Source: Jannaschia pohangensis (GTDB taxonomy: Bacteria; Pseudomonadota; Alphaproteobacteria; Rhodobacterales; Rhodobacteraceae). From it: DNA of 64,000 bases. The stretch spans positions 372,001 through 436,000 of the forward strand of contig NZ_FORA01000001.1 of NCBI RefSeq assembly GCF_900113875.1. Direction: 5' to 3'. Both the position numbers and the translations under genes were made by a program. Shown piece by piece: positions 29,673-52,149 of this stretch. Numbering within the stretch: position 1 is the first letter of the stretch; the number at the start of each line of letters is the position of its first letter. Under the pieces are notes generated by a model. That model saw nothing but the letters and a program-made list of their open reading frames with translations, was not told where the DNA came from and searched no databases.

Positions 29673-29689
29673 TGAGACGCTCGGGTATG
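29673..29689 (+). promoter_or_regulatory. Shared 17-bp element, copy 1, upstream of the binding-protein gene
   Basis: TGAGACGCTCGGGTATG stands 130 bp upstream of the solute-binding-protein start. The same element with one mismatch lies upstream of the permease operon (33296-33312). The AraC-type regulator encoded between the two is the natural candidate to bind it. Confidence 0.45.
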
Positions 29690-29818
29690 ACGTCGCACCC
29701 CCGGTAATCACGAATTCCGCAACCGCGCCTACCGTCTGAGGACGAGGATCGAGGTCGCACCGCCACGGCCACGCGAAGGGGCCAACAGGCATTCATGCGA
29801 CCCGAAAGGGAGGATGAC

Positions 29819-31078
29819 ATGAACAGATTTATTGCAAGCGTTGTCGCTGCGACAGCGTTGACGATGCCCTTGACCGCACAAGCCCAGGAAGCGTTCAAGA
29901 TCGGCGTGCTGGTCACCCAGGAAGGCACGTTCACCGTTGCCGGCGGTGACGGCATCCGGGGCGTTGAGCTGGCCATCGACCAGTTCGGCGGCGAAGTCGC
30001 CGGTCGGCCCATCGAATGGGTTCTGGGACCATCGGACGCCACGCCGGACACGGCCGTACGCGTCGCACGCAAGCTGATCGAGCAGGACGGCGTCGACATC
30101 ATCGTCGGCCCGCTGTCCGGGTCCGAGGGTATCGCGATGCGCGACTACTCCAAGACGATCCCGGACAAGACGATCATCAACGGTATCTCGGGCGCTCTCG
30201 AGACGACCTTCGTCGATCCGTCGCCCAATTTCTTCCGGTTCAACACCGACGGCAACCAGTGGGGCTCGGGCCTCGGAAGCTATGTCGTGAACGAACTGGG
30301 CTGGACGAACATCGCCACGGTCGCGGCGGATTATTCGTTCGGCTACACCAACTTCATGGGCTTCGCCGTCGACTATTGCCGCGCGGGCGGCAAGATCGAG
30401 GAACGCTTCTGGCAGCCATTGGGCAGCTCGGACTTCGGATCGGTCATCGCGGCCCTGCCCGATGACGTCGATGCGATCTATCTGGGGATCGGCGGCACGG
30501 ACGCCATCAACTTCCTGAACCAGTATCAGCAGGCCGGCTCGGAGACGAACATCATCGCGGGCACCATCCTGGTCGACCAGTCGGTCCTGACGGCCGAGGG
30601 GCGCGCCAAGGACGCGCTGATCGGGACCGTGTCGTCTGGTCCGCAGGCCGACGACTACGACAGCCCGGCCTGGAAGGCCTATGTCGAAGCCTATCAGGCG
30701 AAGTGGGCCCCCGAAGACCGCTTCCCCACCCCGTCGCTGTTCGCGACCGGCTACTACAACGCGACGATGGCCGCCCTGACCGCCCTGCAGGAGGTCGAGG
30801 GCGACACGAGCGACGGACAGGAAGCGTTCCGCGCCGCACTCTCGGGCCTGACCCTGGCCAGCCCCATCGGTGACATCACCCTGAATGAGAACCGTCAGGC
30901 CACCGGCCCCGTGTTCATCAGCGAGGTGATCGAGAACGAGGACGGCACCCTGTCGACCAAGATGGTGAGCAAGGTCGAAGGCGTGACCCAGACCCTGGGC
31001 CTCGAGATGGCGGATTTCGCCGCCCTTGGCCTGCCGTCGCGGGACACGCCGGATTGCGACGCCCTCAACGGCGGCTGA
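29819..31078 (+). CDS. Branched-chain amino acid-type ABC transporter substrate-binding protein
   Basis: This 419-residue periplasmic protein starts at ATG 29819 (AAAGGGAGG upstream). The Sec signal is cleaved near AQA-QE (about residue 22). The mature part is a type I periplasmic-binding fold of the LivK/amide group: FKIGVLVTQEGTFTVAGGDG, IEWVLGPSDATPDTAVRVA, VDIIVGPLSGSEGIAMRDY and VAADYSFGYTNFMGF (each near the expected position). Such proteins in Rhodobacterales bind varied small organic acids and amides as well as amino acids. The permease and ATPase genes follow at 33.4-36.3 kb, interrupted by an alcohol dehydrogenase and the AraC gene; a hairpin directly follows this gene and would lower readthrough, as is usual for abundant binding proteins. 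Confidence 0.9.
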   Translation: MNRFIASVVAATALTMPLTAQAQEAFKIGVLVTQEGTFTVAGGDGIRGVELAIDQFGGEVAGRPIEWVLGPSDATPDTAVRVARKLIEQDGVDIIVGPLSGSEGIAMRDYSKTIPDKTIINGISGALETTFVDPSPNFFRFNTDGNQWGSGLGSYVVNELGWTNIATVAADYSFGYTNFMGFAVDYCRAGGKIEERFWQPLGSSDFGSVIAALPDDVDAIYLGIGGTDAINFLNQYQQAGSETNIIAGTILVDQSVLTAEGRAKDALIGTVSSGPQADDYDSPAWKAYVEAYQAKWAPEDRFPTPSLFATGYYNATMAALTALQEVEGDTSDGQEAFRAALSGLTLASPIGDITLNENRQATGPVFISEVIENEDGTLSTKMVSKVEGVTQTLGLEMADFAALGLPSRDTPDCDALNGG

Positions 31079-31097
31079 CCTGTTCCCGAACGCCTGA

Positions 31098-31131
31098 GCG
31101 GGGCCGGCTTGGCGCTGGCCCCGCCCCTTTT
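31098..31131 (+). terminator. Rho-independent terminator or attenuator after the binding-protein gene
   Basis: Arms at 31098-31108 and 31114-31124 pair at ten of eleven positions (GCGGGGCCGGC with GCTGGCCCCGC) around a 5-nt loop. CCCTTTT follows. It probably lets most transcripts end after the binding-protein gene. Confidence 0.65.
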
Positions 31132-31192
31132 GCAGACATTGCGCCGGGGGACCTTGCCGTCCCGACCGGCGGACGTTCGGAGGGGCCGCATC

Positions 31193-32326
31193 ATGTCATT
31201 GATCACGTATCTGACCCGTGTGCGCTTTGCCGACGCGGTTCTCGAAGACGGGATCGAGTCCGAACTGCGTCAATGCGGGATCACCCGCCCCTTCGTCCTG
31301 ACCGATCGCGAACCTGACGGAGCCTTGCTGGCCCGGTTCCTCGGGGCCTTGCCCGACGGGATGCCGGTCACCCGACAGCTGCTGCCCAATGCCCCCCTGA
31401 CCCAGGCCAACCTGCTGATCGCGGTCGAGCGGTTTCGCGCGGGCCGCTGCGACGGGGTCATCGGCTTTGGTGGCATCGCGGCCATCGACATGGCCCGCCT
31501 GCTGGCCCTGACCTATGCGGACAAATCGGCCCGCACGCGCGTTCTGACCGGGACGGCCACCACCCTTCGGGACCGGGGTCGCGCCCTGCCGGTGATCACG
31601 GTGCCCACGACGGCCGCCTGTGGCGCGGGTCTGGGCAATTGCATCCGACTGGTGCGCGCCGATACCCGGCCCGTCACCCTGATCGGCCCGGCGCTGCTGC
31701 CGTCGGCCACGCTCTGCGATCCGACCCTGATGTCCGACGAAGGCCCCGAGGCCATGGCCGCGGCCGTCATCGACGTGCTGGTCCATTGCGTCGAAACCTA
31801 TCTGTGCACCGATTGGAACCCGCCCGCCGACGGCATCGCGCTCGAAGGGTTGCGGCGGGCTTCCGCCGTGCTGGACCGGGCAGTCGATGACAGGGGTGAC
31901 CTCGAGGCGCGGCGCGAATTGATGGCCGCCGCGTTGAACGGCGCGCTGGCGGGGCAAAAGGGCCTTGGCGGCATTCACGCGCTGGCCCATGCGCTCGAAC
32001 GTCAGGTGCCCGGCGGGCCCGCGCCCCATGGACAGCTTCACGCGGCCCTCGCACCCCATGTCCTTGAATTCAACGCGCCCGCCGTTGGCAAACGCTATCG
32101 CCTGATTGCCGAGACGATGCGCCTGCCCGAAAGCGCGGACCTGCCGACGGCCTTCGCGAAGCTGGGCGAGAGACTGTCCCTGCCCCTGCGGCTCAGCCCG
32201 ACCGGACTGGCCCGCACGGCGCTGCCGCAGATCGCCGCGCAGGCCGAGGCGGACCCGACCAACCGGACCAACCCGCGCATGGCCACGGCCGCCGATTACC
32301 AGACCATGCTGGAGGCCGCATTGTGA
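31193..32326 (+). CDS. Iron-containing alcohol dehydrogenase / maleylacetate reductase-like
   Basis: This 377-residue protein starts at ATG 31193 behind GGAGGGG. The N-terminal dinucleotide domain carries VIGFGGIAAIDMARLLAL (GGG/SxxD variant, about 92-109). ITVPTTAACGAG corresponds to the P-T-T-x-x-x-G-S/A motif. The C-terminal metal domain has DVLVHCVETYLC, GIHALAHALERQVPGGPAPHG and HAALAPHVLEFN, matching the Asp/His metal ligands of Fe-ADH. The branch with GIHALAHAL-type motifs includes maleylacetate reductases of ring-cleavage pathways as well as generic alcohol dehydrogenases. It lies between the transporter genes, so it probably acts on an intermediate of the imported compound. Confidence 0.85.
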   Translation: MSLITYLTRVRFADAVLEDGIESELRQCGITRPFVLTDREPDGALLARFLGALPDGMPVTRQLLPNAPLTQANLLIAVERFRAGRCDGVIGFGGIAAIDMARLLALTYADKSARTRVLTGTATTLRDRGRALPVITVPTTAACGAGLGNCIRLVRADTRPVTLIGPALLPSATLCDPTLMSDEGPEAMAAAVIDVLVHCVETYLCTDWNPPADGIALEGLRRASAVLDRAVDDRGDLEARRELMAAALNGALAGQKGLGGIHALAHALERQVPGGPAPHGQLHAALAPHVLEFNAPAVGKRYRLIAETMRLPESADLPTAFAKLGERLSLPLRLSPTGLARTALPQIAAQAEADPTNRTNPRMATAADYQTMLEAAL

Positions 32327-32411: not shown

Positions 32412-33248
32412 ATGAGCACTGCTGCCGCCGTAATTCACGGGCCTTTTGGTCGCGTGTGCCTCTACAACATGGATCGCCCCATGGTGCGTCACGCCCATAG
32501 GGAAGGCCATCTTGTGTTCCACGTTCAGGGCCCGCCTGCGGAAATGGTGGTGGAGTCCAAGGCCTATCCGATCGCGCCCGGACAGGCCGCCGCCGTCAGC
32601 CCGTGGCAACCCCACCTCTACAGACCGCTGCACGATGAGCCGACGCTCGCGCTGGTTCTCTATATCAATCCCGGCTGGTTTCTGGAGGCCAGCCGACGCG
32701 CCACCTCGTCCCTGCGCTTCGGGCGCAACGCCATCGAGGCCAGCACGCCGATCAACGCACATGTCCACCACATCGCCCGCGTCATGCTGGAGCACGAGGT
32801 CGATGACGGCAACGTCGAGGACGAGATCTGCGCCCTGACCCAGACCTGTTTCGACCAGTCGTGGCAATGGACGACCGAGGGCACGGCCTTCGTCGGACGT
32901 GCCCTGCCCGTCTGGGATTTCCGGGTCCGCGCGTCCCTGCGCCTGATGCGCGACCACGTCGGCAGCGACGACACCCTGACCGACATTGCCCGTGCGGCCG
33001 GCCTGTCACGACCGCATTTCTACAAGCTGTTCCGGCAACACGTGGGCGTGACCCCGAACCTCTACATGAACGCCCTGCGGATGGAGCGTGCCATCGGCCT
33101 TCTGACCGACAGCCAGGACGCCGTGACGGACATCGGCTTTGACCTCGGCTTTTCCAGCCAAGCCAGTTTTTCGCGGTTCTTCATCGCCAATGGCGTGGTG
33201 GCCCCGTCCGACTATCGCCGCAGCGTTCTCAACGCGATGACGCTCTGA
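32412..33248 (+). CDS. AraC-family transcriptional regulator with cupin-type sensor
   Basis: This 278-residue protein has an N-terminal cupin-like ligand domain (about 20-130; HAHREGHLVFHVQG, then VSPWQPHLYRPL). The C-terminal double helix-turn-helix is at about 175-275 (DIARAAGLSRPHFYKLFRQH, then IGFDLGFSSQASFSRFFIANG), the canonical AraC signature. GAGGGAGGAAG precedes ATG 32412. Upstream 85 bp form its promoter. It sits inside the transporter/catabolic cluster and is the likely activator, perhaps via the 17-bp element at 29673 and 33296. Confidence 0.92.
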   Translation: MSTAAAVIHGPFGRVCLYNMDRPMVRHAHREGHLVFHVQGPPAEMVVESKAYPIAPGQAAAVSPWQPHLYRPLHDEPTLALVLYINPGWFLEASRRATSSLRFGRNAIEASTPINAHVHHIARVMLEHEVDDGNVEDEICALTQTCFDQSWQWTTEGTAFVGRALPVWDFRVRASLRLMRDHVGSDDTLTDIARAAGLSRPHFYKLFRQHVGVTPNLYMNALRMERAIGLLTDSQDAVTDIGFDLGFSSQASFSRFFIANGVVAPSDYRRSVLNAMTL

Positions 33249-33295
33249 AACCGGCGCCGATCTCGCCGATGTTTACGCGACCCTGCGCCACGCTT

Positions 33296-33396: not shown

Positions 33397-34410
33397 ATGA
33401 GGGCGTTCACTCAGCGCTATCCGGTCTGGTCGGCTCTCATCGGCTTGGCGGCCCTCATCCTGCTGTATGCCATCTTCGCCCCCTGGTCGGACGCCGCCGA
33501 AGACATTTTCGGACGCAAGCGCATCTTCCTGAACGCGCTCTTCGGGGGCATCACCCTCGGGGCGCTCTACTTCCTGGTCGCGTCGGGGTTCACGCTGATC
33601 TTCGGACTGATGAAGAACGTCAACCTGGCCCATGGGTCGCTCTATCTGTTCGGCGGCTACATGGGCTATCTCTGGGTCGATCTGACGGGCCTGTGGATCT
33701 GGGCGTTCCCCGTCGTCTTCATCATCGTGGCCCTGATCGGCGTGGTCCTCCAATATGTTGTCTTCCGCCGGATGGAGGGCGAGGATCTGCGCCAGACCCT
33801 TGTCACCATCGGGATCGGCATCGTCGCCGCCGACATCATGCTGTGGATCTGGGGCGGCCAAAGCTACACCATCCTGACGCCCGAATGGCTGTCGGGTCCG
33901 ACAAAACTGCCGATCATCTCGTCCATCCGGGACAGCGGCGAGATCGTCTATCTCAGCTATCCGCAGGTGCGCATCGCGATCCTCGTGGCCTCCATCGTGA
34001 TCGGCCTGGGCATGTGGTTCGCCCTGAACAAGACGCGGATCGGGATGCTGATCCGGGCCGGCGTCGACGACAAGGAGATGCTGACGGCGACGGGCGTGCG
34101 CATCCAGCTGGTTTTCGTCGGGGTCTTTGCCTTCGGCGCGGGGCTGGCGGGCATCGCGGGCATCGTCGGCGGCACGTTCCAGTCGATTTCCCCGGGTGAA
34201 GACACGCGCTTCCTGCTGGCAAGCCTCGTGGTGGTGATCGTGGGCGGCATGGGGTCGATCCCGGGGGCGGCGCTCGGCGCGCTCATCATCGGTCTCGCCG
34301 ATCAGCTCGGGTCGGTCTACATGCCGACCTATTCGGTGGTCCTGTCGTTCCTCATCATGGCGCTGGTCCTGGCGTTCCGGCCCCAGGGCCTTCTGGGGGG
34401 TGGTCGCTGA
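33397..34410 (+). CDS. ABC transporter permease, LivH type
   Basis: This 337-residue inner-membrane permease has about eight to nine helices. After a helix at about 15-32 come LNALFGGITLGALYFLVASG and LMKNVNLAHGSLYLFGGYMG, typical of the LivH family (N-x-A-H-G-x-x-x-x-x-G). The coupling helix region is near ALNKTRIGMLIRAGVDDKEM, and the C-terminus ends ALVLAFRPQGLLGGGR as LivH does. GGGGAGGAATTC precedes the ATG. It starts a dense run of overlapping genes that continues to 52149. It overlaps the next permease start by one base. Confidence 0.93.
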   Translation: MRAFTQRYPVWSALIGLAALILLYAIFAPWSDAAEDIFGRKRIFLNALFGGITLGALYFLVASGFTLIFGLMKNVNLAHGSLYLFGGYMGYLWVDLTGLWIWAFPVVFIIVALIGVVLQYVVFRRMEGEDLRQTLVTIGIGIVAADIMLWIWGGQSYTILTPEWLSGPTKLPIISSIRDSGEIVYLSYPQVRIAILVASIVIGLGMWFALNKTRIGMLIRAGVDDKEMLTATGVRIQLVFVGVFAFGAGLAGIAGIVGGTFQSISPGEDTRFLLASLVVVIVGGMGSIPGAALGALIIGLADQLGSVYMPTYSVVLSFLIMALVLAFRPQGLLGGGR

Positions 34411-35465
34411 TGGCCGTCACCGACACCAGACCGCAGCCCTCCTATCAGTGGATCGAGCATATCTCGGCCACCAACTTCGGGATCATCGCGCTGGCGCTCA
34501 TCATGCCCGTGCTGGCCAACGATTTCATCCTGTTCCAGGTCTTCGGTTGGGCCTTCATCCTGGGGACCATCGCCCTGTCGCTGCAGTTCCTCGCGGGTTA
34601 TGGCGGCATGGTCAGCCTGCTTCAGATGACCGTCGCGGGGCTGGCCGGATATGGCGTGGCCCTCTTCGGGGACAGCGGCGCGGCCCTGTCGCTCGGCTGG
34701 CCCTGGTGGTTGAACATCCCGGTCGCCATCATCGTCGCGGGCATCTTTGCGACCCTCGTGGGTGCCCTCGCCGTGCGGACCGAGGGGATCTATACCATCA
34801 TGATCACCCTCGCCATCGCCTCGGCGTTCTTCTATTTCGCGCGGCAGAACTATCCGATCTTCAACGGCTATACCGGGTTCAACCTGGTCATCCCACCACA
34901 GCTCTTTGGCGTCGACTGGCGGCAACCCGTGCCGTTCTACTACCTGACGCTCGGGGCCGCGACGCTCTCGTTCATCTGCGTCCTCTATGTATCGCGGTCG
35001 CCCTTCGGCCTGGCCCTTCAAGGCGTGCGCGACAACCCGCGCCGCATGGCGGCCCTCGGATTCAACGTCACGATGCACCGCATCTATGCCTATACCTTCG
35101 CCAGCTTCTTTGCCTCCATCGGGGGCATCCTTCTGGTCTGGCAGAACGCGCAGGTATCGCCCGGCACCGTGGGCCTGCCCAATGTCTTCGACATCCTGGT
35201 GATCGCCGTGGTCGGCGGTCTGCGCCACCCCATCGGACCCTTCATCGGCGCGCTGATCTATTGCGTTCTGCGGGCCTTTGCCCCCGACATCCTGCTGGCG
35301 TTCGGTCTGTCGGGCGAGCGGTTCAAGATGCTGATCGGCCTTGGTTTTCTCGCCATCGTGTTCTGGTCGCCCGACGGTGTCCTGGGCCTTTGGGATCGCT
35401 GGAAAGCGCGCAGATCGGCCAATGCGGATCCGCTGACCGGGAAAGCACGCGGGGGGTCGGCATGA
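34410..35465 (+). CDS. ABC transporter permease, LivM type
   Basis: This 351-residue permease has about nine helices. Family features are SLQFLAGYGGMVSLLQMTVAG (about 51-71, matching the LivM L-x-x-G-Y-x-G-x-x-S/V-x-G-x motif), ALAVRTEGIYTIMITLAIASAF and SPFGLALQGVRDNPRRMAALG, the last being the coupling helix, with a final SPDGVLGLWDRWK. It pairs with the LivH-type subunit to form the channel. Its stop overlaps the ATPase start by 4 bp. Confidence 0.93.
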   Translation: MAVTDTRPQPSYQWIEHISATNFGIIALALIMPVLANDFILFQVFGWAFILGTIALSLQFLAGYGGMVSLLQMTVAGLAGYGVALFGDSGAALSLGWPWWLNIPVAIIVAGIFATLVGALAVRTEGIYTIMITLAIASAFFYFARQNYPIFNGYTGFNLVIPPQLFGVDWRQPVPFYYLTLGAATLSFICVLYVSRSPFGLALQGVRDNPRRMAALGFNVTMHRIYAYTFASFFASIGGILLVWQNAQVSPGTVGLPNVFDILVIAVVGGLRHPIGPFIGALIYCVLRAFAPDILLAFGLSGERFKMLIGLGFLAIVFWSPDGVLGLWDRWKARRSANADPLTGKARGGSA

Positions 35466-36253
35466 CGATGACCGATACCGCCGCCGACCGTCTGGGCAGC
35501 GCCAGCAGCGGCAACGCGCTGGAACTGCGGGGTGTCACCAAGCTCTTCGGTGCGCTTGCCGCGCTCACCGATATCAACCTGACCGTCCGGCCCGGCGAAC
35601 GGCGCGCGGTTCTGGGCTCCAACGGCGCGGGCAAGACCACGCTGTTCAATTGCGTCACGGGCGATTTCCTTCCGACGAACGGCTCCATCCGCCTTTTTGG
35701 TGAAGACGTCACCAGCTTTCCGCCGCAGGAGCGTATCCGGCGCGGCCTTCGGCGCACCTATCAGATTTCGCTGCTGTTCGGCGGGCTGTCGGTGATCGAC
35801 AACGTCTATCTGGCCTGTCGCGGTGTCAGCCGGGGACGGTTTTCGATGCTGCGGCCCCGGCGCAACGACACGCTGATGGCGCGGGCGGCCGAACTGATCG
35901 AGGCGGTCCACATGACGCCGCTCAAGGACACCATGGTCCGCAACCTGGCTTACGGCCAGCAGCGGCAGCTCGAGATCGCGCTGGCCCTGTCCGGGGCACC
36001 CCGCCTGATCCTATTCGATGAGCCAGCGGCCGGCCTGTCGCCCACCGAGCGCAGCGAGTTGATCGCCATCCTGATGGGTTTGCCCGGACACATCGGATAC
36101 ATCATCATCGAGCATGACATGGACGTGGCCCTGCGTGTCGCGACCTCGGTTTCGATGATGCACAACGGGCGCATCTTCAAGGAAGGCAGCCCCGAAGAAA
36201 TCGAAAACGATCCGGAGGTGCAGGAATTGTACCTGGGGGGTGGCCATGGCTGA
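35462..36253 (+). CDS. ABC transporter ATPase, LivG type
   Basis: This 263-residue ATPase starts at ATG 35462; longer frames to 34400 lie in the permease gene. Walker A is GSNGAGKT (52-59). The signature loop is LAYGQQRQLEIALAL, Walker B is LILFDEPAAGLSPTE, and the H-loop is IIIEHDMDVALRVA. The order and spacing are those of LivG (about 255-260 residues). It energises import together with the following LivF-type ATPase. Its last bases overlap the next start. Confidence 0.94.
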   Translation: MTMTDTAADRLGSASSGNALELRGVTKLFGALAALTDINLTVRPGERRAVLGSNGAGKTTLFNCVTGDFLPTNGSIRLFGEDVTSFPPQERIRRGLRRTYQISLLFGGLSVIDNVYLACRGVSRGRFSMLRPRRNDTLMARAAELIEAVHMTPLKDTMVRNLAYGQQRQLEIALALSGAPRLILFDEPAAGLSPTERSELIAILMGLPGHIGYIIIEHDMDVALRVATSVSMMHNGRIFKEGSPEEIENDPEVQELYLGGGHG

Positions 36254-44202: not shown

Positions 44203-45848
44203 TCGAATTCCGCAAGGACCTTTTCGCCGACGAACGCGATGACACCCTGAACGAGGTCGGCAAACCCACGCGGCGGCAGGATATTCTGGGCCATGTCACC
44301 GGGCGGTCGCCCTATTTCGACGACCATCTGTTCGACGGGCTGCTGCATATGCGCGCCGTTCGTTCGCCCCATCACCACGCCCGTATCCGCCGCATCGACA
44401 CCGCCGAGGCCGAACGGATGCCCGGCGTCGTCCGCGTGCTGACCGGCAAGGACGTGCCGCAGAACCTCAACACCCTGCTCAGTCTTCTGGATTTCGGCAT
44501 CGACGACGAGCCGCTGTTGTCCACGGACAAGGTCGCCTACCGGGGCGAGCCGGTGGCCTGCGTCATCGCGGCGACGGAGCTTCAGGCGCGCGATGCGGTC
44601 GCCAAGGTGCGGGTCGACTACGAGGAATTGCCCGCCGTCTTCGACGTGGAAGAGGCGCTGAAGCCCGGCGCGCCCACCGTGAACCCGGTCTATCCGAAGA
44701 ACGCCTTCGTCTATCACGGTCGCTACGACCATCAGAAGCTGCGCTTCGGCGACGTGGATGCGGCTTTGGCCCAGGCCGATCATGTGGTCGAGGGGCGCTA
44801 TCAGATGTCGCCCATCGAGCAGGCCCCGATGGAGACCTGCGGCGCCATCGCCGCCCCCGAACAGAACGACCGCTATGTCTGCTATACCTCGACGCAGGCC
44901 CTGTTCTTCAGCCTGGGGACAGCGGCCAAGATGCTCAAGATGGGCTCCAACCGGCTGCATTTCATCGGCGGGACGGTGGGGGGCGGTTTCGGCGGCAAGG
45001 TGGACAGCCTGCACGAGCCGATGGCCATTCTGGGGGCAAGCCTGACGGGTCGACCCTGCAAATTCGCGTGGGACCGCGAGGAAGAGATGCAGGTCGGCGC
45101 GCCGCGTGGCGCGGAACGCTGGTATCTGACCGATGGCGTGATGAACGACGGGCGGATCGTGGCCCGCAAGTTCACCGGCTATTTCGACAGCGGGGCTTAT
45201 ACACGCCTGTCCTCCTACGCGATCATCAAGGGCGTGGGGCATTTGCCCGGGCCCTATACCATCCCGAACGTCCATGCCGACGTCTACTGCGTCTTTACCA
45301 ACCGCACGCCCGCCACGGCCATGCGGGGGTTCGGCATCACCGGCGTCGATTTCGCCATCGAGGCGCATATGGACAAGGTGGCCGAGGTGGTCGGCATGAA
45401 CCCGATCGACCTGCGCATCCTGAACGCCTACCGCGACGGCGACATGAAGGCGCACAGGCGTCTGGCCAAGAATACCGCACTGATCGAATGCTGTCAGGTC
45501 GCGGCGCAGAAGGCCGGGTGGTCCATCGCCCCCAGTTCGCAGGCCGCCGCATCGATGAAAGACGGCGGTGGCGCGCGCGCGGCGCTGCCCGCGCATACGG
45601 TCACCGATCAGAAAGGCCTGGTCGAGGGGTTCGACAGCGGCTCCTATGCCAAGAAGGCCGGGGCCTCCGCACCGCCCTCCCCGTCATCGGCGCAGCCAAA
45701 CCGCCCGACCCCGACACCGACGCCAGGCCAGGCGGCCCCTGCCCCGGCGCAGGCCCGCCCGGCGCCGCAAACGGCGGCATCGTCCCCGGATCAGCCGCGG
45801 AACAAGCCCAACCGCTTTTCCTCCCTCTCCGGCTTCAGGAGGCGTTGA
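44199..45848 (+). CDS. Molybdenum hydroxylase large subunit, N-terminal half with Pro-rich tail
   Basis: This 549-residue protein covers the first domains of the Mo-cofactor subunit: VGKPTRRQDILGHVTGRSPY at the N-terminus, GGTVGGGFGGKVDSLHEP (about 258-275, the GGGFGGK Mo-cofactor loop) and ATAMRGFGITGVDFAIE (the MRGFG site). It ends after ECCQVAAQKAGW plus about 110 residues, of which the last about 60 are rich in Pro, Ala and Ser/Thr and finish FRRR. In most xanthine dehydrogenase or CoxL proteins the chain continues; here the C-terminal domain is a separate gene starting one base after the stop. Both halves look well conserved, so I interpret a natural split. It lacks the CoxL form I active-site motif, so it is not a CO dehydrogenase. 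Confidence 0.88.
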   Translation: MIEFRKDLFADERDDTLNEVGKPTRRQDILGHVTGRSPYFDDHLFDGLLHMRAVRSPHHHARIRRIDTAEAERMPGVVRVLTGKDVPQNLNTLLSLLDFGIDDEPLLSTDKVAYRGEPVACVIAATELQARDAVAKVRVDYEELPAVFDVEEALKPGAPTVNPVYPKNAFVYHGRYDHQKLRFGDVDAALAQADHVVEGRYQMSPIEQAPMETCGAIAAPEQNDRYVCYTSTQALFFSLGTAAKMLKMGSNRLHFIGGTVGGGFGGKVDSLHEPMAILGASLTGRPCKFAWDREEEMQVGAPRGAERWYLTDGVMNDGRIVARKFTGYFDSGAYTRLSSYAIIKGVGHLPGPYTIPNVHADVYCVFTNRTPATAMRGFGITGVDFAIEAHMDKVAEVVGMNPIDLRILNAYRDGDMKAHRRLAKNTALIECCQVAAQKAGWSIAPSSQAAASMKDGGGARAALPAHTVTDQKGLVEGFDSGSYAKKAGASAPPSPSSAQPNRPTPTPTPGQAAPAPAQARPAPQTAASSPDQPRNKPNRFSSLSGFRRR

Positions 45849-45849
45849 G

Positions 45850-46878
45850 ATGACCATTCACAAGGGGCGCGGGTTCGCCTGCATCAACTATCCCATCGGC
45901 ATGAACCTGGGCGGCGACCCGTCGCAGGCGCTGGTCCATTCGAACCCCGACGGCAAGTTCACCGTCGCCCTGTCGGCCATCGACCTTGGGCAGGGGATGA
46001 AATCGGTGACGCGGCAGATCGCGGCCGAAACACTTGGTGTGCCGGTCGAGGACGTCTATGTCGACACCGCCGACAGCGACACAGGCCCCCACGACATGGG
46101 CAGCTTTGCCAGTCGCGGCACACACCGGGTCGGCAACGCCGTCATTCGCGCCGCCGAAGAGGCGCGGGGCGTGATGCTGGAGGCCGCCGCCGAGGAGCTG
46201 GAGGTCGATGCGGGCGACCTTGTAACCGACGGGCGGGGCAACATCCACGTGCGCGGCGCGCCCTCGCGGTCGATCACCACGATGGCGGCAAGCCAGGCGG
46301 CCCAGTTCAAGCAGGGGCGCACCATCGCCGGTCGCGGCATCTTCCTCATCCCGCTCTCCGAAGTGGACCCCGAGACGGGCGAGATGACGCCCGTGTCCTG
46401 TTTCGCCCACGCGGGGCTGGTCGTGGACCTGACCGTCGATGACGAGACGGGCGAGGTGGAGGTCCTTCAGATCAATTCGGCCTATGAAGTCGGGCGCGCC
46501 CTGAACCCGCGTCTGGTCGAACAGCAGTTGATCGGCGGGGCCTGGATGGGTCTGTCCCATGCGCTTTGGGAGACGACCGAGCCCTATTATCCGAACCGCG
46601 ACCACGGGCCGGTGGATTTCGTCAACTACCTGATGCCGGGGCCCGGCGAAGTCACCCCGCACAACATCGCGGTGCTGGAACGGCCCGCCGAAGACGCGCC
46701 TTTCGGCGGCAAGGGCCCGGGCGAGATGTGCGCCAACCCCGTTCTGCCCGCCGTGGCCAACGCGCTCTATAATGCGGTCGGCGTCCGCTTCGACGAGCTG
46801 CCGATCACCCCCGAGAAGATCCTGCGCGGCTTGCGGGCGAATGGCGGCGCGCGGCCCCAAGCGGTCAGGCAAGGCTGA
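45850..46878 (+). CDS. Molybdenum hydroxylase large subunit, C-terminal half
   Basis: This 342-residue protein starts at ATG 45850 after AGGAGGCG. It begins HKGRGFACINYPIGMNLGG, corresponding to the middle of a normal large subunit. VALSAIDLGQGMKSVTRQIAAE is the Q-G-x-x-x Mo-cofactor loop. DTADSDTGPHDMGSFASRGT follows. GKGPGEMCANPVLPAVANAL near the end holds the Glu that serves as catalytic base in the family (G-x-G-E). Together with the preceding ORF it makes a full large subunit of about 780 aligned residues plus linker. It overlaps the MoxR gene by one base. Confidence 0.9.
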   Translation: MTIHKGRGFACINYPIGMNLGGDPSQALVHSNPDGKFTVALSAIDLGQGMKSVTRQIAAETLGVPVEDVYVDTADSDTGPHDMGSFASRGTHRVGNAVIRAAEEARGVMLEAAAEELEVDAGDLVTDGRGNIHVRGAPSRSITTMAASQAAQFKQGRTIAGRGIFLIPLSEVDPETGEMTPVSCFAHAGLVVDLTVDDETGEVEVLQINSAYEVGRALNPRLVEQQLIGGAWMGLSHALWETTEPYYPNRDHGPVDFVNYLMPGPGEVTPHNIAVLERPAEDAPFGGKGPGEMCANPVLPAVANALYNAVGVRFDELPITPEKILRGLRANGGARPQAVRQG

Positions 46879-47759
46879 TGCCGGTCCGCCCCTCCATCGC
46901 CGGGATCGACAGCCCGGACCGCCTGGCCGAGGTGCTGCGCGACGCGCAGTACATTGCCGACGAGGGGCTTTCGACCGCGGGTTATCTGGCGCTGGCCCTG
47001 GGCAAGCCGCTCCTGCTCGAAGGGGCGCCGGGCGTGGGCAAGACCGAAGCGGCCAAGGCCATCGCCTCGGTTCTGGGGCGGGGCCTGGTCCGGTTGCAGT
47101 GCTACGAGGGGATCGATGCCTCGGCGGCCATGTACGAATGGAATTTCCCGCGTCAGATGCTGGCAATCCGGCAGGCGGGCGAGGATTTCATCAACCTCTA
47201 CGGCGACGAATACCTGATTGCGCGGCCCATGTTGCAGGCGTTGCAGAACCCGCGCCAGACCGTCCTGCTGATCGATGAGATCGACCGCGCGGACCCGGAG
47301 TTCGAGGCGTTCTTGCTGGAATTCCTGTCCGACTTCACCCTGTCCATCCCCGAGCGCGGAACCCTGCGCGCCGAGGAGCATCCGGTCGTCGTTCTCACGT
47401 CGAACCGCACGCGCGAATTGCACGAGGCCTTGCGCCGTCGCTGCGTGTATCACTGGATCGACTATCCGGCCCCGGCGCTGGAAGCGCAGATCGTGATGAT
47501 GCGGGCCAGCACCGTGGCTGAGCGGACGGCCGCGGCCGTTGTCGCCGCCGTCAACCGCCTGCGCGCGGAGCCGCTGGCCAAACCTCCCGGCGTCGCCGAA
47601 ACGGTCGAATGGGCCGAGGCGGCGACGCTGCTCAATGCCCAGGGGGCGGCCTGGCCCACGGCCTTTGCGCGGGCCATCGGCGTGGCCCTCAAGGATCAGG
47701 ACGACGTAAGCTATGTGGCGCCCGGTCTCGACGCCCTGCTGGCCGAGGTGGCGGCATGA
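46878..47759 (+). CDS. MoxR-type AAA+ ATPase (CoxD-like)
   Basis: This 293-residue ATPase has Walker A EGAPGVGKTEAAKAIA (GAPGVGKT at 49-56), Walker B TVLLIDEIDRADPEFEAFLL (about 129-148), sensor 1 VVLTSNRTRELHEALRRR and an arginine finger region. MoxR/CoxD proteins act with VWA-domain partners to mature molybdenum hydroxylases, for example inserting sulfur and copper in CO dehydrogenase. Gene order hydroxylase-MoxR-VWA is exactly that of cox clusters. It starts at ATG 46878, overlapping the previous stop, and ends overlapping the VWA gene by ATGA. Confidence 0.93.
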   Translation: MPVRPSIAGIDSPDRLAEVLRDAQYIADEGLSTAGYLALALGKPLLLEGAPGVGKTEAAKAIASVLGRGLVRLQCYEGIDASAAMYEWNFPRQMLAIRQAGEDFINLYGDEYLIARPMLQALQNPRQTVLLIDEIDRADPEFEAFLLEFLSDFTLSIPERGTLRAEEHPVVVLTSNRTRELHEALRRRCVYHWIDYPAPALEAQIVMMRASTVAERTAAAVVAAVNRLRAEPLAKPPGVAETVEWAEAATLLNAQGAAWPTAFARAIGVALKDQDDVSYVAPGLDALLAEVAA

Positions 47760-48856
47760 CCGTCCCCCGGCCCCTTCTTCCCTATCTCCATTTCGCCGCC
47801 GCGCTGCGGGCCCACGGCTTTCCGGCGGCGTCCGAACAGACAGTGGACGTGATCGCCGCGACGGAACTGCTTGGCCCCCGGGCGCTTGCCGACATCAGGG
47901 CGGCGGCGCGCGCGCTCTATGGTCCGCCGCCCGAACGCTGGCCCGAATTCGACGCGCTGTTCGATCAGTCGTTCCTGGGCCGGACCATCGCCGCCCCGGC
48001 CATGGGCGACCCCGAGGACATGCCCGACGCCTATGACGCGGGCACCCCCGAATTGCAGCCCGAAGCCGAGGAGGAAGACCCGTCCGGCAGCGAGGCGACG
48101 GTTGCCGAACGCCTCTTCGCGCGCGACTTCGACGCCCTGAGCGAGGCGCAGACGCTGCGCCGTTTCGCGCGGTCCGCACCCGCGGCGATGCCCATGCGAA
48201 GGACGCGCCGCACCGAAAGCCATACCAAGGGCCCCCGCCCCGACCCAGCCCGCGCCTTCCGCGACATGGCCCGCCGGGACGGCGATATCGGCCATCTGCC
48301 GGTCCGGCGTCGGGTGGTGAAACCCCGGAGAGTCCTGCTGCTGATCGACGTCTCGGGCTCCATGAAGGCGCAGACGGACAGCGCGCTGCGCATCGCCCAT
48401 GCCGTCACCCAGGCCTTGCCGCACGTAGAGACCTTCACCCTTGGCACGCGTCTGACGCGCGTGACCCGCGCCCTGCGACCGCGCGAGCAGGGCCTTGCCC
48501 TGTCGCGCGTGGCGGGACTGGTGGCCGATTGGGACGGCGGCACCCGTCTGGGCGACACGTTGCAGGTCTTCCTGTCTGTCCCACGCTTCGCAAGTTTCGC
48601 GCGGGGGGCCTATTGCGTGATCCTGTCTGACGGGTTGGAACGCGGCGATCCGCAGGCCCTGACCGATGCTGTGGCCCGCCTGTCGCGGCTGTCCTGGGGG
48701 GCGTTGTGGCTGTCGCCGCTGGTGCAGGCCGGACAGACGCCCGAGACGGCGGCGATGCAGGCCATCGCGCCCCTGATCGACCACATCGGGGACGGCTCCT
48801 CTGCCGCGCGCATCTGCGCCGAGATCCTCGGCTTCGCACGGGGGGCCCCGGCATGA
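47756..48856 (+). CDS. VWA-domain protein (CoxE-like), MoxR partner
   Basis: This 366-residue protein starts at ATG 47756; longer frames lie in the MoxR gene. The C-terminal half is a von Willebrand A domain with MIDAS motif LLIDVSGSMKAQT (DVSGS at 198-202), a second metal residue near WDGGTRLGD (T) and a third in VILSDGLERGD. The N-terminal half is acidic (about 85-115) and helical. CoxE-type proteins work with the MoxR ATPase as a metal-dependent chaperone for the Mo-hydroxylase active site. It overlaps the amidohydrolase gene by ATGA. Confidence 0.92.
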   Translation: MTVPRPLLPYLHFAAALRAHGFPAASEQTVDVIAATELLGPRALADIRAAARALYGPPPERWPEFDALFDQSFLGRTIAAPAMGDPEDMPDAYDAGTPELQPEAEEEDPSGSEATVAERLFARDFDALSEAQTLRRFARSAPAAMPMRRTRRTESHTKGPRPDPARAFRDMARRDGDIGHLPVRRRVVKPRRVLLLIDVSGSMKAQTDSALRIAHAVTQALPHVETFTLGTRLTRVTRALRPREQGLALSRVAGLVADWDGGTRLGDTLQVFLSVPRFASFARGAYCVILSDGLERGDPQALTDAVARLSRLSWGALWLSPLVQAGQTPETAAMQAIAPLIDHIGDGSSAARICAEILGFARGAPA

Positions 48857-49740
48857 TCGACAGCCATTTCCATATCTGGCGTCAGGCCGACCTGCACTGG
48901 CTTCAGGGGCCGAGCCAGCCGCGCATCTTCGGCGAATACGACGCCATCAAGCGCGATTACCCGATCGAGGAATACCTGAGCGACGCGCAAGGCGCCGGCA
49001 TCACCGGCAGTGTCTATGTGCAGGCCAACTGGCCCACCGAGCGGGCCGAGGACGAAGTCGCCTGGGTCAGTCAGACGGCGCAGGACACCGGCTGGCCCAT
49101 GGGGATCGTGGGCTATGCCGACATGACCGTGCCCGATGCCCGCCCCGCCCTCGACCGGCTGGCGCGATACCCGCTTCTGCGCGGCATCCGGCAGCAGTTT
49201 CACTGGCACGAGAACCCGACCTATCGCTTTGCGCAGGATCCCGACATCTGTCGCTTTCCGAACGTGCAGGCCAATATCGCGCGGCTGGCCGATTATGGCC
49301 TGACCTTCGACCTTCAGGTGTTCGCCGGGCAGATGGACAGCGCCGCGGCCCTTGCCCGGGCCTGTCCGCGCGTGACGTTGATCCTGCAACATGCCGGGAT
49401 GCTCGAAGACCTGAGCGATGCGGGCCGCGCCGACTGGCGGCAGGCGATGGCGACCCTGGCTGCGGAACCCAATGTCGTGTCGAAACTGTCGGGTTTCGGC
49501 ACCTTCATCCACCGCAACGACCCCGCGCTTATCGCCTGGCTCATCAGCGAGACGGTGGGCCTGTTCGGGGCACAGCGCTGCCTCTGGGGCTCCAACTTTC
49601 CCATCGAGAAGCTCTGGACCAGCTACGACCGGCTTCTCGACGCCCACAGGCAGGGCGCAGGCGGGCTGAGCGCCGCCGAACAGGCCGACATCTTCACCAA
49701 TACCGCAGTCCGGGTCTACCGGCTGTCCGCAACACACTAG
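48853..49740 (+). CDS. Amidohydrolase 2-family TIM-barrel hydrolase/lactonase
   Basis: This 295-residue protein starts at ATG 48853 and overlaps the VWA gene. MIDSHFHIWR carries the HxH metal pair (His5, His7). LRGIRQQFHWHE, TLILQHAGML and CLWGSNFPIEKLW supply further active-site residues, the last holding the place of the usual Asp (G-S-D/N-F-P); here it is Asn. Members hydrolyse lactones or decarboxylate 2-oxo or aromatic acids (4-sulfomuconolactone, 2-pyrone dicarboxylate). This fits ring catabolism downstream of a Mo-hydroxylase, but the substrate is inferred only from context. Confidence 0.87.
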   Translation: MIDSHFHIWRQADLHWLQGPSQPRIFGEYDAIKRDYPIEEYLSDAQGAGITGSVYVQANWPTERAEDEVAWVSQTAQDTGWPMGIVGYADMTVPDARPALDRLARYPLLRGIRQQFHWHENPTYRFAQDPDICRFPNVQANIARLADYGLTFDLQVFAGQMDSAAALARACPRVTLILQHAGMLEDLSDAGRADWRQAMATLAAEPNVVSKLSGFGTFIHRNDPALIAWLISETVGLFGAQRCLWGSNFPIEKLWTSYDRLLDAHRQGAGGLSAAEQADIFTNTAVRVYRLSATH

Positions 49741-49752
49741 GGAGGACCGAAA

Positions 49753-50601
49753 TTGGCTCTGGAAATCAAAATCCTGGACTACGGCGATATCGAACTGGAA
49801 AGCAGCTTCCTGGTGCTGGCACGCGAATGCGGGCGCACCCGGCGCGTTCCGGTCTATGGCTTCCTGATCCTGGGCGGCACCTATCCCATCGTGGTGGACA
49901 CCGGCTACCGGGACAACGCGATCATGGAAACGCTCGGCATGCGCGGGCTGCAATTCCATGAAAACATGATCGAAAACCAGCTGGCCCGCCACGGCGTCAA
50001 GGTCGGCGATGTTCGCTATGTCTGCCACACGCATCTGCACATCGACCATGCGGGCAAGGACGACAAGTTTCCGATGAATACCACCGTCGTCATCAACCGG
50101 CGTGAAATGGAATGCTCCGTCTCGGGCCTGATGCATCCGCAGTATCCCAAGCCCGACATCCAGCACCTGATCGAACGGCTGCACACGCCCCACGCCCTGC
50201 GCTTCGAAGACCTGGAGCTGTCGGGCGCGATCGAACTCATCCCCGGCGTCTATCTGGAGGCGGCGAACGCCCATACCGAGGGGTCGATGAACGTCCACGT
50301 GGAAACCGCCGAGGGTCTGGCGACGATCTGCGGCGACGTGATCTATGACTTTCAGGATCAGATCGTCGAGCCGCTGTTCCAGGTCAACGACCACGAGGTG
50401 CAGGTGACCGGCAACCACGCGGGCTCCAAGCGCAGCGAAAAGGCTGCCGTCAAGAAGCTGCTCAACAGCTCCCGCTTCCTGCTGCCGATCCACGACAAAC
50501 CCGCCAAGATCGAGAACGGGCAAGTCGTCGGACGCCTCGACATGCAGGTCCCGGGGCCAGTCAGCCAGACGGTCCAGAAACGCAACTGGTTCCCCGTCTA
50601 A
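49753..50601 (+). CDS. Metallo-beta-lactamase-fold hydrolase (AHL-lactonase-like)
   Basis: This 282-residue enzyme starts at TTG 49753 behind GGAGGACC. The dinuclear zinc motif is HTHLHIDHAG (His94, His96, Asp98, His99), with a further His in ANAHTEGSMNVHV, Asp in TICGDVIYDF and a late His in LLPIHDKP. The layout agrees with N-acyl homoserine lactonases of the AiiA/AttM branch, but that branch also contains catabolic lactonases. In this cluster a lactone ring-opening step is more plausible than quorum quenching. It lies 12 bp after the amidohydrolase and 15 bp before the fusion gene. Confidence 0.87.
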   Translation: MALEIKILDYGDIELESSFLVLARECGRTRRVPVYGFLILGGTYPIVVDTGYRDNAIMETLGMRGLQFHENMIENQLARHGVKVGDVRYVCHTHLHIDHAGKDDKFPMNTTVVINRREMECSVSGLMHPQYPKPDIQHLIERLHTPHALRFEDLELSGAIELIPGVYLEAANAHTEGSMNVHVETAEGLATICGDVIYDFQDQIVEPLFQVNDHEVQVTGNHAGSKRSEKAAVKKLLNSSRFLLPIHDKPAKIENGQVVGRLDMQVPGPVSQTVQKRNWFPV

Positions 50602-50616
50602 CCCCAAGGACAGACC

Positions 50617-52149
50617 ATGCCCCATACCGCCGTCACCCCCGCATTCGATGCGCTTCTGGATGTGAACGCGCCCGTTCGCACCATCGGCAGCGGGTTCATC
50701 TTTACCGAAGGCCCGATCTGGCATCCGTCCGAGCATCATCTGACGTTCTCGGACATGCCCGGAGATGTGCGGCGACGGTGGGACGGGGCGAATATCACCG
50801 AGGTCGCGCGCCCGTCGCACAAGGGCAACGGGATGACCTATGACGCGAGCCTGAACCTGATGGTGTGCGAACACGCCACCTCGTCGGTTGTCCGCATCGC
50901 GCCCGACGGGACCCGCGTGGTTCTGGCCAGCCATTTCGAGGGCAAGGAGCTGAATTCGCCCAATGACATCGTGGTGAAGTCCGACGGCTCCATCTGGTTC
51001 ACCGACCCTTGGTATGGCCGGATGCCGCACTACGGCGTGGAGCGGCCGCGGGAGCTTGGCTGGCAAGGGGTGTTCCGCCTGCCGCCGGGCGGCGGCGACC
51101 CGGAACTGATGGTCGACCGCCACATGTTCAGCCAGCCGAACGGCCTGTGCTTCTGCCCAGACGAAAGCAAGCTCTACGTAAATGATACCGAACAGGCGAA
51201 CATCCGGGTGTTCTACCTCAAGGGCGACAAGCTGGACGGCGGCCGGATCTTTGCGTCGGGCATTCGCGACGGGCGGCTGCCCGGCGTGCCAGACGGGATG
51301 AAATGCGACGCGCAGGGCAACGTCTGGGTCACCGCCCCGGGGGGGCTGTGGGTCTATGCGCCGTCGGGCGCGTTGATCGGCAAGGTGGCCATCCCCGAAC
51401 AGGCGGCGAACCTGCATTGGGGCGGGCACGATTGGCACACGCTCTTCGTCACCGCCGGAACATCGGTCTATGCGGTGCCCACCAGGATTGGCCCAAGACG
51501 GGAGCCTTTCATGTCAGCTTCCTCCCCCCCCGCCGGCACCGAACCCCTGATGCTCGACACGGCTCGCTGCGCCCTCATCATCCAGGACATGCAGAACGAC
51601 GTGATCATGGACGGCGGGGCCTTTGCAGAGACCGGGTCGCCTGACCATTGCCGGGCGCAGCAGAACATTCCCAAGACCGCCGATCTGGCCGCGCATTGTC
51701 GCAAACTCGGCGTGCCGGTGATCCACGTCTGGTTCAAGAACCCGCCCGGCGGCCAGGGCCTGACCCTGAATGCGCCCCTGTTCGAGGGAGTTCTCGACAA
51801 CAATGCGCTGGTCGAAGGGACCTGGGGGTCGGAACCCGCCCCCGGGCTGGAGGCGCAGGCAGGCGACCACATCGTCACCAAGAACCGAATGTCCGCCTGG
51901 GAGGGCACGCGGCTCGAGACGATCCTGAAGGCCGAAGGCCGCGACATCCTGATCCAATGTGGCGCCTGGACCAACATGAGCGTGGAGCACACGGCCCGGA
52001 CCGGGGCCGACAAGGGCTATGTCATGGTCATCCCCGAAGACGGGTGCAGCACGATGAACGCCGATTGGCACCGCGCGTCCATCGACTATGCGATGACCAA
52101 CGTCGCCCTTGTCACCAAGGTGTCCAGCGTCATCGCCGCCCTGCGCTGA
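50617..52149 (+). CDS. Fusion: SMP-30/gluconolactonase plus isochorismatase-like hydrolase with Cys-to-Ser nucleophile
   Basis: This 510-residue protein has two domains. Residues about 15-290 form an SMP-30/gluconolactonase beta-propeller: FTEGPIWHPSEHHLTFSDMP has the metal Glu, LNSPNDIVVKSDGSIWFTDP the Asn/Asp pair, and GVPDGMKCDAQGNVWV the last Asp. Residues about 305-510 form an isochorismatase/cysteine hydrolase fold: Asp324 in LIIQDMQND and Lys422 in VTKNRMSAW are in place. The nucleophile position, normally Cys in V-C-V-E-x-T, reads NMSVEHTAR, so it is Ser455. The frame is continuous through a short Ser/Pro linker. A lactone hydrolysis plus amide hydrolysis pairing would fit breakdown of an N-containing ring. 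It ends the cluster and is convergent with cbpM. Confidence 0.9.
   Translation: MPHTAVTPAFDALLDVNAPVRTIGSGFIFTEGPIWHPSEHHLTFSDMPGDVRRRWDGANITEVARPSHKGNGMTYDASLNLMVCEHATSSVVRIAPDGTRVVLASHFEGKELNSPNDIVVKSDGSIWFTDPWYGRMPHYGVERPRELGWQGVFRLPPGGGDPELMVDRHMFSQPNGLCFCPDESKLYVNDTEQANIRVFYLKGDKLDGGRIFASGIRDGRLPGVPDGMKCDAQGNVWVTAPGGLWVYAPSGALIGKVAIPEQAANLHWGGHDWHTLFVTAGTSVYAVPTRIGPRREPFMSASSPPAGTEPLMLDTARCALIIQDMQNDVIMDGGAFAETGSPDHCRAQQNIPKTADLAAHCRKLGVPVIHVWFKNPPGGQGLTLNAPLFEGVLDNNALVEGTWGSEPAPGLEAQAGDHIVTKNRMSAWEGTRLETILKAEGRDILIQCGAWTNMSVEHTARTGADKGYVMVIPEDGCSTMNADWHRASIDYAMTNVALVTKVSSVIAALR

Follow-up and report, generated by a model that had tools for sequence, protein, structure and literature searches.

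A conserved cluster of importer, flotillin and hydroxylase genes

Do the importer, giant flotillin and molybdenum (Mo) hydroxylase genes that lie side by side in Jannaschia pohangensis belong to one system, and what might that system do? We analyzed a window of 64,000 nucleotides (RefSeq assembly GCF_900113875.1, contig NZ_FORA01000001.1, positions 372,001 to 436,000 of the forward strand), and coordinates without a locus label refer to this whole stretch. The cluster occupies 29819-52149 of the plus strand. It encodes a Liv-type importer with its second ATPase, LivF, fused to a UPF0261 (Tm-1-like) module (LivF-Tm1), a PEP_hydrolase-like barrel (PEPh), the flotillin, two SRPBCC proteins (SRP1 and SRP2), the flavin adenine dinucleotide (FAD) and iron-sulfur (FeS) subunits of the hydroxylase, the N-terminal (MoN) and C-terminal (MoC) halves of its Mo subunit, MoxR and VWA_CoxE proteins, and three hydrolases: Amidohydro_2 (AmH), MBL and an SMP-30/isochorismatase fusion (SMP30-Iso). 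An initial annotation had proposed one unit for degrading a cyclic, probably N-containing acid, organized at the membrane.

We surveyed gene order from two sides. On the PEPh side, 336 relatives of the window's own PEPh were found, and all proteins were mapped onto the 80 loci with the best matches, which represent close relatives only. The flotillin is present in 60 of these 80 loci. We set aside 11 flotillin-bearing loci with <8.5 kb downstream, and 47 of the 49 with at least 8.5 kb encode MoN and MoC, with gene order as in the window. The other two are L037, whose shorter flotillin is separated from PEPh, and L050. Among the flotillin-less PEPh loci with enough sequence, MoN and MoC were found in 0 out of 10. 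On the MoC side, 19 out of 27 genomes contain the flotillin block, and in every one of the 19 the 13 core genes from LivH to MoC are complete; in seven others the stretch read shows no flotillin, and the last is truncated by a contig end. The initial annotation had named as fatal to a single system the case that the two blocks are never neighbors elsewhere. They adjoin in 47/49 testable loci, and with the MoC-side counts the proposal of one system is strongly supported.

Flotillin and MoC occur together in 68 other stretches (including a few duplicates of one genome, e.g. L024 and G871), and gene order is therefore conserved far beyond chance. Identities across these stretches are 48-72% for the flotillin, 68-86% for MoC and 70-85% for PEPh. 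The co-occurrence in both surveys and in the 68 stretches rules out that the two blocks are chance neighbors. Wherever both parts could be placed, LivF and Tm1 are fused (66/66), MoN and MoC are split (64/64), and SMP-30 and the isochorismatase-type domain are fused (8/8). Outside the 80-locus set, LivF and UPF0261 of Thermomicrobium are two adjacent genes. The order continues through to SMP30-Iso in eight longer stretches, with some genes absent in some clusters (MBL in G159 and Shinella, AmH in G399). Each block also occurs apart from the other: some hydroxylases have no flotillin block, and some flotillin blocks go with a different redox enzyme. A search of Creative Commons (CC)-licensed PubMed Central papers found none on this cluster.

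Sporadic distribution

At E ≤ 1e-100, MoC relatives occur in 8 of 385 genomes of the class, 4 of 60 close relatives and 2 of 20 genus members including the own genome. At E ≤ 1e-90 they occur in 16 of 398 genomes of the phylum, two of the 16 (G514 and G611) being only partly fetched, and in 8 of 292 genomes of the order; the class, phylum, order and close-relative sets overlap. Carriers include Bosea, Bradyrhizobium, Roseibium, Xanthobacter, Hoeflea, Roseomonas, Aurantimonas, Acuticoccus and a Granulosicoccaceae metagenome-assembled genome (MAG), and the cluster is also found on plasmids of Yoonia and Shinella. In a tree of MoN and MoC, the window groups with Hoeflea, Roseomonas, Gemmobacter and Rhodosalinus. 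Because this tree does not follow taxonomy, we read the cluster as one system that is sporadic and has moved horizontally.

Two side observations concern single copies. Downstream of the cluster on the Yoonia plasmid are three integrase genes (L083, 31324-34522), which fits mobility. In G918, a piece of 3359 bases at a contig end (L165) has its MoN match in two pieces and a stop within the MoC match, and is possibly a decaying or misassembled copy.

Genes of the cluster

Pfam and NCBIfam scans confirmed, in place, all the families that the initial annotation had named. The features are as follows.

28085-29626, plus strand: aldehyde dehydrogenase frame, probable accessory gene (Aldedh, E 6.7e-46 over residues 43-338; longest frame, from a TTG start, so the start position may differ)
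29819-31078, plus strand: LivK-type binding protein (Peripla_BP_6, E 3.5e-56; closest solved structure 4zpj)
31193-32326, plus strand: Fe-dependent alcohol dehydrogenase (Fe-ADH), 4-hydroxybutyrate-dehydrogenase-like, optional member (Pfam/NCBIfam)
32412-33248, plus strand: AraC-family regulator, in place in most relatives (Pfam)
33397-34410, plus strand: LivH permease (BPD_transp_2; Pfam)
34410-35465, plus strand: LivM permease (BPD_transp_2; Pfam)
35462-36253, plus strand: LivG ATPase (Pfam)
36240-38435, plus strand: LivF ATPase fused to UPF0261 (Tm-1-like) N and C domains (Pfam; solved relatives Tm-1 3wry and 9mpy)
38432-39259, plus strand: PEPh, PEP_hydrolase-like TIM barrel (TBST; PF09370, E 8.8e-132; solved relative 2p10)
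39279-41918, plus strand: giant flotillin of 879 residues (Band_7 and Flot; Pfam)
41918-42355, plus strand: SRP1 (Polyketide_cyc2, PF10604, E 1.8e-25)
42480-42926, plus strand: SRP2 (Polyketide_cyc2, PF10604, E 4.5e-20)
42926-43726, plus strand: hydroxylase FAD subunit, CoxM/NdhF-like (FAD_binding_5/CO_deh_flav_C; Pfam, NCBIfam)
43726-44202, plus strand: hydroxylase 2x[2Fe-2S] subunit, CoxS/NdhS-like (Fer2/Fer2_2; Pfam, NCBIfam)
44199-45848, plus strand: MoN, NdhL-like, with a disordered C-terminal tail (Ald_Xan_dh_C and MoCoBD_1; Pfam, 3HRD match, model)
45525-45845, plus strand: coding region of the MoN tail, 107 residues after residue 442, ending RFSSLSGFRRR
45850-46878, plus strand: MoC, NdhM-like (MoCoBD_2), with conserved Tyr14 and catalytic-type Glu292
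46878-47759, plus strand: MoxR-type AAA+ ATPase in the CoxD position (AAA_5, E 3.3e-13)
47756-48856, plus strand: VWA_CoxE protein in the CoxE position (PF05762, E 5.2e-39)
48853-49740, plus strand: AmH, lactonase/amidohydrolase (Pfam; closest solved structure 4dlf; L-fuconolactonase-like but under that model's cut-off)
49753-50601, plus strand: MBL-fold lactonase-like protein (Lactamase_B; Pfam, NCBIfam, solved-structure match)
50617-52149, plus strand: SMP-30/gluconolactonase (SGL) fused to an isochorismatase-type domain with Ser at the usual Cys position (Pfam)

The cluster had been described as nearly gap-free, with 21 plus-strand genes including a possible leader. We count 20 protein genes between 29819 and 52149, and the putative leader is an 11-codon frame starting at 29672. 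Of the 19 junctions, 11 overlap, 10 of them by 1-4 bp. The description as nearly gap-free holds from LivH (33397) on; the first three junctions are spaced by 114, 85 and 148 bp, and 124 bp separate the two SRPBCC genes. This last gap, with a 17-codon frame, was rejected as a general feature, as SRP1 and SRP2 matches lie ≤ 20 bp apart in nine out of ten full clusters; in the tenth, Yoonia, a 159-bp hypothetical gene lies inside.

The aldehyde dehydrogenase frame directly upstream had been overlooked. It ends 192 bp before LivK on the same strand, and relatives stand upstream of the cluster in G399 (69%), L009 (53%) and G1031 (67%, other strand). Fe-ADH is probably peripheral to the system, because a match occurs in only 31 of the 68 stretches, at 26-47% identity. 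The outer flanking genes (minus-strand GntR and AbrB-family genes beyond the aldehyde dehydrogenase, and a minus-strand DnaJ gene downstream of the cluster) are unrelated to it. None of the 20 cluster proteins had a Pfam match to a microcompartment or encapsulin shell protein at E ≤ 0.001.

A split hydroxylase of nicotinate-dehydrogenase architecture

The best solved match by sequence for both halves of the Mo subunit is nicotinate dehydrogenase, 3HRD (E values of 1.7e-56 for MoN and 1.6e-44 for MoC), which is also the best fold match of the predicted MoN model, at an identity of about 30%. Glu292 of MoC aligns with the active-site Glu of 3HRD chain B and is kept in 79/80 sequences; we take this position to be that of the catalytic Glu of Mo hydroxylases. 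Tyr14, near the MoC start, is kept in 80/80, and the corresponding Tyr presumably sits at the substrate in 3HRD. With its Mo subunit in two polypeptides and separate FAD and FeS subunits, the enzyme has the architecture of nicotinate dehydrogenase (NdhFSLM), which acts on nicotinate and carries Se at its active site. No nicotinate-fermentation genes were recognized in the cluster by Pfam or NCBIfam, where family names alone may overlook such genes. The MoxR ATPase followed by VWA_CoxE reproduces the cox-type maturation order, and the genome carries MoaA-type and XdhC-type genes.

Carbon monoxide (CO) dehydrogenase was considered and rejected, since MoN scores far under the large-subunit cut-offs (177.2 of 950 bits for NF040766 and 175.6 of 991 bits for TIGR02416). 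TAMRGFGITG stands at the expected place of the CO dehydrogenase Cys loop, and the Cys-bearing loop for Cu is absent.

Related hydroxylases occur in other settings. A plasmid of the archaeon Salinigranum rubrum (L085, 14652-19758) encodes a split Mo-hydroxylase of this type whose MoN has no tail, followed by cyclase and SRPBCC genes. Flotillin-less sister clusters (L087, 14207-21309, and in the same order G464, G567 and G719) run SRPBCC, FAD, FeS, MoN, MoC, MoxR, VWA and Amidohydro_2, with an AraC-like gene in front.

A flotillin with a long rod and a tail on MoN

Both flotillin domains score over their cut-offs (Band_7, 62.9 versus 23.6 bits; Flot, 111.5 versus 27 bits). The protein comprises a predicted N-terminal membrane helix, an SPFH domain, a rod of ~556 residues and the Flot domain. 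Its predicted model, which is weak (pLDDT 62, pTM 0.25), has helices at residues 3-34, 201-582 and 595-758. We compared rod lengths in 69 frames with both anchor motifs, individual frames being taken as found; L050 and the second cluster of G524 had no anchor match. The 22 distinct lengths span 248-845 residues, and all are 6 or 9 modulo 11. None of 100,000 random draws gave this pattern, and it was not seen for any other modulus from 7 to 15. Within the rod, self-identity peaks at spacings of 44, 77, 22, 33, 55 and 11 residues. These periodicities indicate a hendecad rod with length changes in steps of 11 residues. Hendecads suit right-handed helical barrels. PMC11260169 describes such a barrel, right-handed and helical, for the human flotillin complex. 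Few cargoes of bacterial flotillins are known.

MoN carries a Pro/Ala-rich C-terminal tail of 86-201 extra residues in all 70 complete sequences from flotillin-bearing clusters, the window included. The tail is absent from all nine MoN relatives whose upstream sequence was read for at least 14 kb and showed no flotillin (G289, G464, G524, G567, G667, G719, Salinigranum, Nonomuraea and Sinorhizobium BG8, the last having a frame break, with MoC starting 46 bp on and no room for a tail). Altogether, 12 MoN had no flotillin in their stretch; these also include two untailed G196 copies, which lie near a contig start so that an upstream flotillin is possible, and the broken and cut G918. In the window, pLDDT is <50 over MoN residues 469-549, and the tail has no confident structure (the MoN model is weak, pLDDT 68).

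Near its end the tail is conserved. [RPQ]F lies 9-11 residues from the MoN end in 69/70 sequences, with R in 66/69 and a fourth-place S in 66/69 (RFxS, where the F belonged to the motif used for finding it); the exception, L047, has RHLI instead and is not counted among the 69. Across the 69 tails RFxS is encoded by 42 different DNA 12-mers, and its conservation is therefore at the protein level. We rejected the tail as a clamp holding the two Mo halves together, as split relatives without a tail exist.

SRPBCC proteins and an alternative redox partner

Hydroxylase-less units in Variovorax (L129) and a Rhodospirillaceae MAG (L050) run Liv-Tm1-PEPh-flotillin-SRP1-SRP2, with no hydroxylase in the stretch read. 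We treat G028 as the L050 genome, because its matches and their identities are the same. In both L129 and L050, which were found independently of this feature, SRP2 is fused in frame to an MDR/quinone-oxidoreductase-type enzyme. A search of 398 phylum genomes directed at the fusion returned the L050 copy and one more, in G524, where it lies behind Liv-Tm1-flotillin-SRP1 with no PEPh match. Because of these fusions in hydroxylase-less clusters, SRP2 looks like a natural partner of a redox enzyme. Parts of PMC4240915 and PMC13240472 present CoxG as an SRPBCC protein proposed to bring CO dehydrogenase to the membrane and its electrons to quinone (for quinone, Kropp et al. 2025, as cited in PMC13240472). 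The parallel of SRP1 and SRP2 with CoxG would be a functional one, drawn by analogy.

The importer and the UPF0261/PEPh pair

The UPF0261 domain models score over cut-off (PF06792, 193.7 bits; PF23189, 281.5 bits). Elsewhere, UPF0261/PEPh pairs stand behind several importer types, some with an adjacent SRPBCC gene and others without, and adjoin sugar importers in some records. In sigma-54 regulators encoded beside UPF0261/PEPh genes (L127, 9318-11051; L122, 5815-7638), a PEP_hydrolase domain forms the N-terminal part, fused to Sigma54_activat, AAA lid and Fis HTH domains. A Thermomicrobium roseum plasmid (L130, 8119-25328) holds in one run a Liv importer, LivF, unfused UPF0261, PEPh, a cyclase, an FAA hydrolase, Mo-hydroxylase genes and a split PEP-synthase-like pair (PPDK_N and PEP-utilizers). 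The many importers that the pair follows, the sigma-54 regulators and the Thermomicrobium context together favor a role at the importer, or as a ligand handler or sensor, over a pathway-specific step.

Taken further, the same evidence would make UPF0261 and PEPh a sensing or transport-regulation module that is unrelated to the oxidation and merely carried along. Besides the regulators and the range of importers, a signaling role for UPF0261/PEP_hydrolase had been suggested, and co-evolution of UPF0261 with TBST/PEP_hydrolase reported, in portions of PMC5028733. We consider such a passenger role improbable in view of the high conservation of PEPh (70-85% in the 68 stretches) and its close co-location with the hydroxylase. 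The Brucella UPF0261 gene BAB2_1127 was screened by signature-tagged mutagenesis and given an attenuation score, according to an extract of PMC2364660.

Proposed mechanism and points against it

From the features observed directly (the conserved unit and its domain content, the split hydroxylase, the tail in flotillin-bearing clusters, the hendecad rod and the SRPBCC fusions) we infer catalytic steps, a tether and an electron route. We propose import-coupled catabolism of a cyclic compound by the Mo hydroxylase at a flotillin-organized membrane site, with SRPBCC proteins as redox or substrate adaptors, and regard it as an even call whether this is correct. The Liv-type importer, with its UPF0261 ATP-binding module on the second ATPase, would import a small cyclic compound, and the PEP-hydrolase-like barrel, the usual UPF0261 partner, would act on or sense it there. 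The four-subunit hydroxylase would perform the central oxidation after maturation by MoxR and VWA_CoxE, as in cox clusters. The flotillin would be the long-walled membrane scaffold at which the hydroxylase works, and the disordered, RFxS-ended MoN tail would tether the enzyme to the flotillin or to an SRPBCC partner. By analogy with CoxG, the two SRPBCC proteins may connect the redox enzyme to the membrane by handing over quinone or a hydrophobic substrate. Amidohydro_2, MBL and SMP-30 hydrolases would open a ring or lactone, and Fe-ADH and the aldehyde dehydrogenase may add optional side steps.

The suggestion that the unit is organized at the membrane is thus strengthened, indirectly, by the predicted membrane helix of the flotillin, the MoN tail and the SRPBCC-oxidoreductase fusions. 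A more specific version seems improbable as it stands: SPFH/flotillin proteins with extended hendecad walls would form tall membrane cages, with height set in 11-residue steps, and the redox enzyme would be recruited through the RFxS tail on its disordered linker (Mo-hydroxylase version) or through an SRPBCC fusion (quinone-oxidoreductase version), beside a Tm-1-ATPase importer, coupling uptake and oxidation at one membrane spot.

Several observations weigh against the proposed mechanism, beginning with the tail. The last Arg codons of MoN read AGG AGG CGT (45837-45852), and AGGAGG at 45837 is likely the Shine-Dalgarno sequence of MoC, as in many relatives. In the terminal RRR, AGG is used for the first codon in 52/69 tails and for the second in 57/69, compared with 119 of the 3333 Arg codons of the cores; the gap from the MoN stop to the MoC start is -1 to 3 bp in 63/69. 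Because of this codon excess and spacing, the RRR end appears to be mostly the ribosome site of MoC; as a docking signal by itself it was rejected, and only the RFxS part was retained. Tailed MoN form one clade, apart from G918, so the tail-flotillin association cannot single out a partner; it may rest on a single event and is equally linked to LivF-Tm1, PEPh and SRP2. A dependence of tail length on rod length (rho 0.32, P 0.013, n 60) was rejected when the weak correlation was lost under phylogenetic contrasts (r 0.24, P 0.14). In G524 the hydroxylase cluster is untailed, and a flotillin cluster that lacks a hydroxylase sits on a different contig; flotillin and tail therefore need not go together in a genome. 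SRP1 and SRP2 matched PF10604 and PF03364 but not CoxG's own Pfam model (COXG) at E ≤ 0.001.

These points bear on another explanation, that the hydroxylase is an ordinary soluble enzyme, with flotillin and SRPBCC proteins serving transport or sequestering a hydrophobic or toxic intermediate, and the tail a solubility or translation-coupling feature. The double use of the RRR end as a Shine-Dalgarno, the missing co-variation of tail and rod, and UPF0261-PEPh-SRPBCC triads with several importer types and no flotillin annotated would all suit it. We nevertheless judge it unlikely, as RFxS is kept at the protein level through many different codons, untailed split relatives exist (e.g. Salinigranum, with overlapping Mo genes), and hydroxylase-less clusters join SRP2 covalently to a redox enzyme.

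The substrate

Further points against the proposed mechanism come from the hydrolases. The isochorismatase domain had been thought to allow amide opening, an idea now weakened: the usual catalytic Cys, the nucleophile of isochorismatase-fold amidases such as RutB and BiuH, is Ser in the window and in 8/8 relatives. The domain thus lacks the residue of a Cys-dependent amidase, which counts against a standard amidase role. The three hydrolases are lactonase-like rather than amidase-like, Amidohydro_2 resembling L-fuconolactonase, MBL resembling N-acyl homoserine lactone (AHL) lactonase or 4-pyridoxolactonase, and SMP-30 resembling gluconolactonase.

A cyclic, probably N-containing acid, as first proposed, is still a plausible substrate because nicotinate dehydrogenase is the closest solved enzyme. 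The nicotinate-dehydrogenase architecture, together with the cyclase-family gene directly behind the related split hydroxylase of Salinigranum, would favor an N-heteroaromatic or lactam-type acid, an assignment that we hold tentatively, as somewhat less than an even prospect. A Sinorhizobium BG8 amidase counts for little, as it lies ~13 kb from the hydroxylase with unrelated genes between.

With the three lactonase-like enzymes and the aldehyde dehydrogenases in mind, the hydroxylase could instead oxidize an aldehyde, hemiacetal or carbohydrate-like compound to a lactone or acid, the lactonase-like enzymes then opening lactones, with no N-heterocycle involved. The FAD and FeS subunits also resemble glyceraldehyde dehydrogenase subunits (NCBIfam), an aldehyde dehydrogenase frame stands upstream of LivK, the Yoonia cluster has SDR, FAA_hydrolase and aldehyde dehydrogenase genes inside, and UPF0261/PEPh pairs elsewhere stand beside sugar importers. 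This route appears rather unlikely when set against the best solved match of both Mo halves and the Salinigranum cyclase gene.

Most parts of the cluster are of known kinds; what sets it apart is the combination, the flotillin rod, the MoN tail and the SRPBCC fusions. The families UPF0261 and PEP_hydrolase are widespread (also in plants, Tm-1-like), and for them we found no assigned function in CC-licensed PubMed Central papers, and the cluster ties them and the flotillin to one importer and one redox enzyme, a defined partner set. A natural set for comparison consists of clusters that lack the flotillin and have an untailed hydroxylase, together with flotillin-bearing ones in which an SRPBCC protein is fused to a reductase. 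If the scaffold reading is true, flotillins would gain a role as scaffolds of catabolic enzymes.

Comparison with known systems

We compared the cluster with four known systems. It resembles nicotinate dehydrogenase NdhFSLM (3HRD, from Eubacterium barkeri) in its four separate subunits, the division of the Mo domain into L and M, and the aligned and conserved Glu and Tyr near the start of M. It differs in its identity of only about 30%, the long MoN tail, the MoxR/VWA, SRPBCC, flotillin and importer genes alongside, and the lack of nicotinate pathway genes recognized by family. With the cox cluster (coxMSLDEFG) it shares the order FAD-FeS-Mo-MoxR-VWA_CoxE, corresponding to M-S-L-D-E, and an SRPBCC protein nearby, as CoxG. 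Unlike that cluster, it has a split large subunit with sub-cut-off scores, AMRGFG in place of the Cys loop, two SRPBCC genes in front and no match to the CoxG model.

The flotillin shares Band_7 and Flot domains and a long predicted helix with SPFH cages (human FLOT1/2 and HflKC). Its rod of ~556 residues (248-845 over the 69) and its 11-residue steps set it apart from the compared SPFH proteins, whose wall helices have 44-189 residues according to PMC11260169. Finally, the UPF0261 and TBST/PEP_hydrolase pair (plant Tm-1-like) recurs here as the same two families side by side, whereas in this cluster UPF0261 is fused to the ATPase of an ATP-binding cassette (ABC) importer and is followed by PEPh, flotillin and SRPBCC genes.

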